A DNA stretch of 5,559 bases from Candidatus Naiadarchaeum limnaeum (lineage in GTDB: Archaea; Undinarchaeota; Undinarchaeia; Undinarchaeales; Naiadarchaeaceae): the NCBI GenBank assembly GCA_014189685.1, contig DVAB01000048.1, positions 1 through 5,559 of the forward strand, written 5' to 3'. This document shows, piece by piece, positions 1 through 3,625 of the stretch. The notes beneath the pieces were generated by a model that ran no database searches, was not told the origin of the DNA, and saw only the letters and a list, made by a program, of their open reading frames with translations. The position numbers were made by a program, and so were the translations under genes. Within the stretch, counting starts at the first letter, position 1, and each line of letters opens with the position of its first letter.

Positions 1-3000
1 AAGGACTGGGAACCTGCTGAATTGAAACATCTAAGTAGGCAGAGGAAAAGAAATCAATGAGATGCTCCTAGTAACGGCGAGCGAAAGGAGCGTAGAACAA
101 ACCGAATCTTTGCTGGCAACAGTAAAGAAATGTGGAGCCGCGTATTACCTGATAAGTTGGAGGGAGGTTGTCTGGAAAGTCGTGCCTTAGAGTGTGATAG
201 CCACGTAATTTTGACTTGTCGGGTAAATTGTGGAAAAGAGTAGTGCACGTTAGGATTCGTGTACGAACATGGGTCGCAGTAAGATCCAATTCTAAATATT
301 TCCCAAGACCGATAGCGTACCAGTACCGCGAGGGAATGCTGAAAAGCTCCCGTAAAGGGGAGTGAAAAGAGCCTGAAAACAAGGGGTTATGTTACGATGC
401 AGCCCTTAGGGGTTGCATCATCCGTTTTGAAAAACGGGCCGGCGAGTTTCTGTCTGTGGCGAGCTTAATTCGAAAAGAATGAGGCGTAGCGAAAGCAATA
501 AGCCCGCAGCGTTGAGCGAGGGGCAACGTGTGCTCGCGTGGAGTCACAGAGAGAAGACCTGAAGCCTATCGAGCTAAACCAGGGCAGGATGAAGCCTCTG
601 TAAAAGGAGGTGGAGGTCCGAAGAGGTTCTGCACATAAGCGTTCTTCTGACCTTGGCTTAGGAGTGATATGCCAATCGAGATGGGCAATAGCTGGTTCCT
701 ACGGAAATACGCCAAAGTGTAGCATCGATGGAGTTGACTAACAGGGTAAAGTACAGATTGGATATTCAGGGGCTTCGGCTTCGGTGTCCTGTCTAACTCT
801 GAATCTGTTAGTAACGTAGAAGTCGATAGTAAGTAAGCGTGGTTAAGCTACGTGGGCGAAAGGGGAACAACCCAGCGAAAGGTTAAGGCCCCAAAATGTT
901 GGCTAAGTGTAAGCAAGGTTTTGCCGCTCTTAGACAGCCGGGAGGTAGGTTCCGAAGCAGCAATCCTCTAAGCAACGCGTAACAGCGGACCGGCCGAGAG
1001 CGACAAGACCGAAAATGGACGGGGCTAAGCCAACTGCCGATACCTTTCTCCGCGAAAGCGTGAGGTACGTAGGCGCTGTGATCGGGTAGAAGCTAGTGCG
1101 AGAGCATTAGTGGACCAATCGCAGATGTGAATGCCGGTGTAAGTAGAAGCTTAGTATCGTGTGAAACGATACCATCAAAGGGCTAGGTTTTCTCAGCACT
1201 AATCGTTAACTGAGAGTTAGTCGGTGCTAAGACAAGTGCGTAAATGTGCTTGCCGAAGGAGAATTCTGTTAATATTCAGAAACCACAAAATTGCGTGTGG
1301 CAACACTAGCAACTTTCTGAAACTTGATGCTAAGTCAGCATCTTCTATCAAAGATGTTAAGCGTTGAAACCTGAGGAGTTCCGTAATGGAGAGAATTAGG
1401 CTAATACGCGAATAGCTTCCGCAAGGAAGTTTGATTAATGCATTGAGTCCGTGAAAAAGAAAGTTGAAGTTATTTTGTGACCGTACTCAGAACCGACACA
1501 GGTGCCCCTAGCCTAGAAAGCTAAGATGTGAGAGGGCACTCCTTCCAAGGGAACTCGGCAAATTAGCCGCGTATCTTCGGTAGAAGCGGTCTCAGCTGTT
1601 GTGGCGCAAGCTGCGATGGCTGGGTGCAATGGCCAGGGGAACCGGACTGTTTAACAAAAACGTAGGTAAGTGCTAAGTCTAAACGGCTTAGCATACTTGC
1701 TGATTCCTGCCCAGTACAGATACCTGAAAGCTCGTTTCAACGGGACCAAGGGCCTGTAAACGGCGGAGGGAACTCTGACCTTCTTAAGGTAGAAATCTGC
1801 CTTAGTAAAATTGGGCTAGTTGCTGGAAAGTCTCGAAGAAATTTAGTAGTAAATTATTTTGGTGACGAAATAATTATCTGAAAATCTAAATAGAGAGACA
1901 ATCAGCAGGAAAGATTTCTGGAATTACGACCCAGAAAAATCCTCAGAGACTATACGCCCAACATCCGCAAAGGATGAAGATATAGTCCGAACCTTGCAGC
2001 GATGCAAGGAGGTAACCCGAAATGTTTACCCGCCACATAGCGTGGTCTACAAATAACAAAAAGTAACAGATTGAGCGAAATGCCTTGTCATTTAATTGGT
2101 GACGTGCATGAAGGGCTAACTAGGTTCCCACTGTCCCTGGGAGGAACCTCACGAATTTTCCGTTCTGGCGAACAAGCCAGAGACTTCCGGTGGGAAATGA
2201 AGACCCCGTAGACCTTCACTGCAGCCTGTAGCTGCGGTTTGGTTTTGTCTGCATAGAGTAGTCGGTACCCGTTACCAGGTTGCAATCTCGGTTGCAATCA
2301 AGGGAAAAGTGTAACACCGATCTTACAGAACCGAATCGCTTACCCATTCAGGGGACACCTTCAGGTGGGCAGTTTTGCTGGGGCGGCAACCTCCCGAAAA
2401 AGTATCGGGAGGACCTTATGGTCAGCTCATCCTGGTTGGAAATCAGGAGTTGACGGTAAGGCGAAAAGCTGGCCTGAATCTGTTCTGAAGAGCGAGGGAC
2501 GGATAGACGAAAGTCTAGCCTAGCGAACATTGGTGCTCTTTTGCTGAGAGCCCAATCTGATAGAAAAGGTACCTCGGGGATAACTGAGTTGTGCCGAGTT
2601 AGAGTTCACATCGACCTCGGCGCTTGCTTCTTCGCTGTCGGCTTTGCTTATCCTGGCCGTGTACAAGCGGCCAAGGGTGCAGGTGTTCACTGATTAAAAA
2701 GCATCATGAGCTGGGTTCACAACGCCGTGAGGCAGTTGGTTTACAATCTACCGGAAGTGTTGATAGTCTGAGGAGAAGGCCGTTTTAGTACGAAAGGAAC
2801 GAGCGACCCGCGCCTCTGGTGTACCGGTTGTCTGATAAGGCAACGCCGGGCAGCTACGCGCGTACGGATAAGCTCTGAACGCATCTAAGAGCGAAGCCGT
2901 CCCCAAAAAGAGACTGTCTGAAGCTCTCGTAGAAGACGAGTTTGATAGGACCGGGGCGTACGCAGCAAGGTAACGAGCTGTTCAACCCGCGGTTACTAAT

Positions 3001-3005
3001 TGCTT
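1..3005 (+). rRNA. 23S ribosomal RNA, 5'-truncated, interrupted by a group I intron
   Basis: Large-subunit rRNA. The window opens inside domain I (around E. coli position 140), so about 130 bases of the 5' end are missing. Landmarks in order are: the GAAACATCTAAGTA block at 25-39; GTAACGGCGAGCGAA at 71-85; the GTPase-centre GAAGCAGC near 954; helix 69 and TTAAGGTAGCGAAAT, split by the intron; GAAGACCCCGTAGACC near 2199; the P-loop CTGGGGCGG near 2379; the peptidyl-transferase GGGATAAC near 2577 and CTGTCGGC near 2635; the A-loop TGTTC near 2683; and the sarcin-ricin loop AGTACGAAAGGA near 2787. Base G at the E. coli 2058 equivalent fits Archaea/Eukarya. The spliced exons are 1-1790 and 2074 to about 3005. 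The 3' end is set by the conserved GGTTACTAAT block and is uncertain by several bases. Several near-invariant positions are changed (see findings), but helix pairs co-vary, so I judge the gene functional. No 5S gene follows in the window. Confidence 0.97.
1791..2073 (+). ncRNA. ORF-less group I self-splicing intron at 23S site L1931
   Basis: A 283-nt insertion separates TTCTTAAGGT from AGCGAAATGCC, a sequence otherwise continuous in 23S rRNA. The exon ends in U (1790) and the intron ends in G (2073), as group I introns require. P1: exon 1784-1790 pairs with guide 1799-1805, with a U.G pair at the splice site. P3: TTGGGC 1811-1816 with GCCCAA 1956-1961. P4: TGCTG 1821-1825 with CAGCA 1903-1907. 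P5: GTCTC 1830-1834 with GAGAC 1895-1899, extended by ATTTAG 1841-1846/CTAAAT 1886-1891 and a hairpin 1852-1875. P6: GG 1908-1909 with CC 1941-1942, capped by 1915-1921/1931-1937. P7: GACTATA 1948-1954 with TATAGTC 1981-1987. P8: CATCC 1962-1966 with GGATG 1972-1976. P9: 1992-1998/2003-2009 with a GCGA tetraloop. Two more hairpins follow (2011-2030 and 2033-2045). There is no room for a P2 stem and no homing endonuclease ORF. Group I introns are known in some archaeal rRNA genes. I do not assign the subgroup. Confidence 0.95.
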
Positions 3006-3086
3006 CAATCTTGTTTAGTAATCTCTATGATATCCTATGCACAGTCGATGATTTTAATTATATTCTTAAGCATACAATTGATAAAA

Positions 3087-3113: not shown

Positions 3114-3402
3114 TTTGGAGACGAGCTAGCAAGCTCAGCCCGCAAGGGTTAGGAAAGTCTGTCCTCGCAAAAATCTGACAAGCGCGTAATGGTGCTAGTT
3201 GAGAACAGAAACACACTGTTTGCTTTGACTTATGATGAGCAGTTGCAGGTGAAATATCTCAACTCGGATGCGAGCAAGGCCTTTGAGCCGCTATGTTCAC
3301 AAGAACATCTCGCCGAACCTGTTCGGCGTTGAGTCGAATGCTTGCACTCCTTTCCTCGCAAGAGGAGGAGCAACTGAAGACAGCTTATCACTCGTCTCCA
3401 AA
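3114..3402 (+). ncRNA. rnpB: RNase P RNA (archaeal)
   Basis: This is the catalytic RNA of RNase P, which removes 5' leaders from pre-tRNAs. Helix P1 closes the molecule: TTTGGAGACGAG at 3114-3125 pairs perfectly with CTCGTCTCCAAA at 3391-3402. P2 is formed by AAGCT 3131-3135 with AGCTT 3382-3386. P3 is a GCAA-capped hairpin (3137-3150), followed at once by the conserved CR-I block AGGAAAGTCTGTCC (3151-3164). P4 pairs CTGTC 3159-3163 with GACAG 3379-3383, sharing two bases with the P2 strand as I have drawn it. Further landmarks are the ACAGAAAC box near 3205, GGTGAAAT near 3248, and CGGATGCGAGCAAGGCC near 3265. The 3' CR-V block reads ACTGAAGACAGCTTAT (3373-3388), matching the usual ACAGAA-NNN-GGCTTAT form except for A to T in ACAGAA and G to A before CTTAT. 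Exact ends are uncertain by a few bases. A T5 run just downstream (3406-3410) may terminate transcription. Confidence 0.92.
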
Positions 3403-3420
3403 TACTTTTTAAATCTACAG
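3401..3420 (+). repeat. Promoter repeat copy 1, before the 38-residue membrane protein
   Basis: AATACTTTTTAAATCTACAG is identical to the sequence at 3592-3611. Its TATA-like core TTTTTAAAT (3406-3414) is centred 25 bases before the ATG at 3435, which predicts a leaderless mRNA. The element begins where RNase P RNA helix P1 ends, so its T5 run may also serve as that RNA's terminator. The promoter role is inferred from spacing. Confidence 0.65.
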
Positions 3421-3591: not shown

Positions 3592-3611
3592 AATACTTTT
3601 TAAATCTACAG
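3592..3611 (+). repeat. Promoter repeat copy 2, before secG
   Basis: An exact second copy of AATACTTTTTAAATCTACAG. Its TATA-like core TTTTTAAAT (3597-3605) is centred 25 bases before the secG ATG at 3626. The 14 bases between repeat and ATG differ from copy 1, as do the flanking bases upstream, so only the 20-mer and the spacing are conserved. The spacer before it (3552-3591) holds no other gene. Confidence 0.7.
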
Positions 3612-3625
3612 TTAAGCGTTAAATT

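Follow-up and report, generated by a model that had tools for sequence, protein, structure and literature searches.

The window, which is the whole stretch of DNA analyzed, is an entire 5.6-kb contig (positions 1–5559; contig C34 of genome bin G000) with an archaeal locus. It starts inside a 23S rRNA gene, the first part of which is missing (1–3019), continues with an RNase P RNA gene, and further contains genes for Sec61-beta, aIF2-beta, a DUF424 protein, a PAP2 protein, and two tRNAs. The 23S rRNA gene matches the archaeal LSU model RF02540 (2238.8 bits; model positions 153–2987 over window positions 1–3019), and is split by an intron into a 5′ exon (1–1790), the start of which lies off the contig, and a 3′ exon (2074–3019). 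The RNase P RNA (3118–3398) is archaeal and divergent, with a score of 62 bits (E-value 8e-17) against the Rfam cut-off of 84. The exons, the intron with all its elements, and the RNase P RNA lie on the forward strand. The sequence AATACTTTTTAAATCTACAG occurs twice, at 3400–3420 and 3592–3612, upstream of small genes, and looks like an archaeal promoter element.

Identity and limits of the intron

The earlier note described an ORF-less, P2-less group I intron at the L1931 site of an archaeal 23S rRNA gene, and proposed a covariance-model search and a structural alignment with other L1931 introns; it proved right in every particular tested. The search identified window positions 1791–2073 (283 nt) as a match to the Rfam model Intron_gpI (RF00028) with a score of 87.9 bits and an E-value of 4e-22, against a gathering score, the curated cut-off, of 50 bits. 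The alignment revealed a core, including covarying P3 and P7 helices, that is common to 97 relatives. The intron is inserted after U1790, which we take to be the equivalent of U1931 in E. coli numbering. After excision of the intron, the flanks read CTTAAGGT followed by AGCGAAATGCC, in agreement with uninterrupted sites such as CTCTTAAGGTAGCGTAATACC in G002–G004, three genomes of the bin's order, all of which have an uninterrupted site. A cut placed two bases downstream would produce an identical joined RNA; the limits 1790/1791 and 2073/2074 are selected by the U·G pair of P1, formed by U1790 and G1799 at the 5′ splice site, and by the last base of the intron, G2073, according to the rules of group I splicing. 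The intron is thus confirmed as complete, without an ORF and without P2, within the limits proposed for it.

Archaeal rRNA introns are mostly of the bulge-helix-bulge type (PMC6125680), which is cut by the tRNA splicing endonuclease. At the junctions of the window intron, no register provides a complete 4-bp central helix together with a paired outer helix, and the two 3-nt bulges that should flank such a helix were not found at the exon-intron junctions. The site is occupied instead by a full covarying group I core, and the bulge-helix-bulge explanation has next to no probability.

The window intron shares P1, P3–P7, and the 3′ end with two published IB4 introns, which were identified among our sequences by their exact coordinates: IB4.1 (L007; CBTY010000008.1, 399334–399054) and IB4.27 (L094; MNWW01000056.1, 8341–9021). 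Based on the homology and the structure described below, we estimate at about 95% the probability that the window intron is self-splicing and belongs to the L1931 family, a widespread type of group I intron that Nawrocki et al. (2018) described as IB4.

Structure and proposed splicing mechanism

The P1 helix is formed in the predicted fold by the exon strand UUAAGGU (1784–1790) and the internal guide sequence GCCUUAG (1799–1805), which is present unchanged or as a one-base variant in all L1931 relatives. The guide sequence is connected to P3 by the linker UAAAA (1806–1810), and P2 is absent, since these five bases are all that separates P1 from P3, as the earlier note had observed. The 5′ strand of P3, UUGGGC (1811–1816), pairs with GCCCAA (1956–1961). 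The strands of P4 (1820–1825 and 1903–1908) enclose P5 (1830–1899), which in the minimum-energy fold has a branched P5a/P5b extension with a GUGA tetraloop capping P5b. The fold has a z-score of −5.9, i.e., it lies 5.9 standard deviations below those of shuffled sequences. The P6/P6a hairpin (1908–1942) occupies the position of the LAGLIDADG endonuclease gene in many relatives, and the P6 insert of the window intron is 24 nt long. The strands of P7, the guanosine-binding helix, are GACUA (1948–1952) and UAGUC (1983–1987). The covariance model and the predicted fold agree on the P8 hairpin (1962–1976) and on P9 (1992–2009), the GCGA loop of which belongs to the GNRA type. Hairpins P9.1 and P9.2 (2011–2045) are predicted from the sequence and coordinates. 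The intron terminates with the conserved sequence AAGUAACAGAUUG (2061–2073), which ends in the terminal G, and corresponds to AAGTAACAGATGTG in its relatives. Thus, the splice-site U·G pair, P3 to P8, and the GNRA-capped P9 claimed in the earlier note are all present, to which the structure adds the branched P5 extension, P9.1, and P9.2. The hexamer AAUCUG near the start of the intron can pair with CAGAUU at its end; this complementarity occurs in the window only and is absent in the relatives, and we take it to be a chance event.

The pseudoknot of P3 and P7, with the guanosine site in P7, is supported by covariation. Variation occurs at five of the six P3 pairs, which nevertheless remain standard, with many pair types, in at least 96 of the 97 introns, and A-U, U-A, and G-C pairs were observed at the same position of P7. 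The P3 of the window intron departs from the common UCUGGC/GCCAGA by changes that compensate each other. Compensatory changes of this kind indicate selection on structure, which bears on whether the sequence could be a degenerate, non-splicing relic, or an insert that is retained, or excised without ligation as in the fragmented 23S rRNAs of some bacteria. The intron is divergent within its family and its splicing is deduced from its sequence, as a relic reading would allow; against this, all of the core pairs are intact, as are J8/7 and the terminal G, and the differences between P3 and the family consensus are compensatory. It is therefore very improbable that the intron is a relic or an insert of this kind.

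We infer the splicing chemistry in the cell from this structure. The transcript would fold so that P1 forms between the exon and the guide sequence, and a guanosine held in P7 would attack after U1790. The freed end of the exon would then attack after G2073, so that AAGGU would be linked to AGCGAAAU and the helix 69–71 region of the 23S rRNA made continuous again. A homing endonuclease was not found in the window intron, in agreement with the earlier note: the longest open frame on either strand has 60 codons. Because the endonuclease gene is absent, the intron is not expected to home by means of its own protein, and we infer that it would be passed on vertically, be lost, or spread through recombination or the nuclease of another element.

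The L1931 family and the source of the contig

Most properties of the window intron are known from previous studies. Nawrocki et al. described 39 group I introns in archaea, the shortest of which has 248 nt and 18 of which have no endonuclease match; LSU/1931 is one of the sites most often occupied, with many IB4 introns, several of them about 250–310 nt long (PMC6125680). Bacterial L1931 introns lacking P2 were described in 2007, and the loss of P2 is common in IC2, IA1, and IB4 introns (PMC1995217). LAGLIDADG inserts at site 1931 have been reported from CPR bacteria (PMC11270868). Class, site, compact size, absence of an ORF, and absence of P2 have all been published, and compact ORF-less archaeal L1931 introns have been available since 2018, which bears out the earlier note's remark that the class is not new.

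When RF00028 was run against 394 archaeal genomes, 15 matches were obtained, 7 of which are at L1931 in addition to that of the window. These eight introns, a set unselected for the linker, have the core and the guide sequence in common, and all eight contain the UAAAA linker and hence lack P2. A collection with one genome for each species was then scanned for a sequence pattern, which identified 113 stretches with L1931 introns from archaea and bacteria; the pattern required the linker, which makes the scan uninformative about P2, and permitted both letters at the last guide base. Judged by length, 51 of the 99 complete cores have no large insert, 41 have an insert in P6, and 7 in P8. The long frames in P6 and P8 inserts match LAGLIDADG_1 in both cases tested. 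The introns with the large insert in P8 rather than P6 are bacterial (L021, L027, L036, L056, L084, L108, and L118), and that of L084 is a LAGLIDADG_1 match. The small P2-less form, which the earlier note considered an open point, is real but not noteworthy, since it is the normal form at L1931. The window intron alone is one more divergent member of a documented family, and the roughly 100 L1931 introns collected from archaea and bacteria are consistent with the absence of P2 as a family trait.

In comparison with the archaeal IB4 introns at LSU/1931, such as IB4.1 (281 nt), IB4.5 (311 nt), and IB4.24 (248 nt) (Nawrocki, Jones and Eddy 2018, PMC6125680), the window intron has the same gene, insertion point, guide, P2-less linker, core, 3′ end, and size class, and likewise lacks an endonuclease gene. 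It differs in its P3, in ending with AGAUUG where the others end with AGAUGUG, and in its divergence, none of the compact relatives being more than 67% identical to it. The bacterial L1931 introns, known from Synechococcus, Thermotoga, and Simkania (PMC1995217) and from CPR bacteria (PMC11270868), resemble it in site, core, and the absence of P2. In contrast, these bacterial introns are usually 650–700 nt long and carry a LAGLIDADG_1 gene, which is located in P6 or P8 in the ones sampled here.

The window contig is probably misbinned, because its 23S rRNA, RNase P RNA, and aIF2-beta genes are second, divergent copies in the 984-kb bin. The other copies of the 23S rRNA and RNase P RNA genes are located on contig C23, and that of the aIF2-beta gene on C40. 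The 23S rRNA from C23 clusters with genomes assigned to the bin's order (support 100/99) and shares 96% identity with its counterpart in L116, whereas the 23S rRNA of the window does not cluster with these genomes. The C40 copy of aIF2-beta is 51–65% identical to those of genomes of the bin's order, in contrast to 37–43% for the window copy. The GC content is 33.8% in the coding part of the window and 36–39% in the sampled contigs of the bin. Judging from these sequences, the contig probably comes from an archaeon of which the searched sets include no close relative. The host phylum given by the bin label was dropped after the second copies of the three single-copy genes had been found. Placement by aIF2-beta was not successful, as no match above 48% identity was among the matches listed from the 394 archaeal genomes, and in a tree of the 3′ half of the 23S rRNA the window sequence lies outside the clade of Woesearchaeota and Pacearchaeota, among unsettled branches at the base of the archaea.

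Contig C23 starts inside an L1931 intron (L137, 1–23), the last 23 bases of which are identical to the tail of the L116 intron. The bin therefore contains two different L1931 introns, which probably come from two organisms. The LAGLIDADG gene of the L116 intron looks truncated. L116 and L061 belong to one woesearchaeal assembly, JACPMZ01, in which two 23S rRNA contigs contain different L1931 introns (553 and 677 nt, respectively); this assembly is probably a mixed bin. The 23S rRNA flanks of L042 (titled Woesebacteria) and L047 (titled Aminicenantes) are archaeal, and these contigs are therefore probably misbinned or mislabelled. Misbinning of this kind warns against reading the host phylum, and hence descent or transfer, from the bin labels of rRNA contigs.

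Origin and spread of the intron

The earlier note left open whether the intron descends vertically or came from bacteria. In a tree of the core (110 columns), the window intron groups with five archaeal introns with moderate support (90/74). The tree contains about 8 changes of domain label, at least 3 of which are forced by well-supported branches, and the cores of bacterial L1931 introns differ little from that of the window intron, as expected if the intron had been gained directly and recently from a bacterium. The guide sequence provides a further argument for such a gain. Its last base, at window position 1805, faces a C in the exons of bacteria and a U in those of archaea, so that G1805 pairs perfectly with the bacterial base and forms only a wobble pair with the archaeal one. 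However, G is kept not only by all 54 bacterial introns but also by 37 of the 45 archaeal introns. Furthermore, the full-length tree of 48 compact introns (259 columns) places the window intron in three nested archaeal groups, all well supported: it is sister to L117 from Woesearchaeota (98/91), and belongs to a group of five archaeal introns (98/92) and to one of eight (97/95), which includes an intron from an Asgard host. A recent bacterial donor is thus unsupported, and we consider a direct and recent gain from a bacterium improbable.

The nearest relative on the full-length tree, L117 (Woesearchaeota ARS1199, NZCN01000007.1, 265 nt), resembles the window intron in its P5 of the UCUC/AGAGA type and in having no endonuclease gene. 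Its host 23S rRNA is inside the Woesearchaeota clade, unlike that of the window. With an end branch of 0.52, the window intron is a long branch in the tree, and the support values overstate the certainty of its exact sister.

Constraining all archaeal introns of the compact set to one clade was not rejected (AU p 0.39), and a single old transfer into archaea is compatible with the data. Older exchange of L1931 introns between the domains may also have occurred, as the label changes on the core tree suggest. Holding the introns of Nanobdellota, Woesearchaeota, and Pacearchaeota together was rejected (AU p 0.024, for a group picked after the tree had been seen), which points to movement of L1931 introns between archaea. 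On the sequences available to date, the sub-lineage of compact endonuclease-less introns that includes the window intron appears only in archaea, mostly DPANN.

An A at the last guide base, complementary to the archaeal exon U, is present in 8 of the 45 archaeal introns (L010, L019, L048, L054, L061, L082, L085, and L105) and in none of the 54 bacterial ones (Fisher p 0.0013, with introns counted as independent despite their kinship). The base changed between G and A about 6 times on the tree, and the window intron has kept G. The distribution suggests that the guide sequence has been retuned to the archaeal exon.

A broader reading, which we put forward tentatively and regard as rather unlikely, is that the window intron belongs to a clade of endonuclease-less L1931 introns, with hosts among Woesearchaeota, Aenigmatarchaeota, Pacearchaeota, and an Asgard archaeon, and that such introns are mobile across archaeal phyla without a gene of their own, with their guide retuned from G to A. 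If this were true, the introns would move between phyla by gene-less means, for example with the help of a trans-acting nuclease or by reverse splicing, and their guide sequence would have adapted to the archaeal exon after their entry into archaea.
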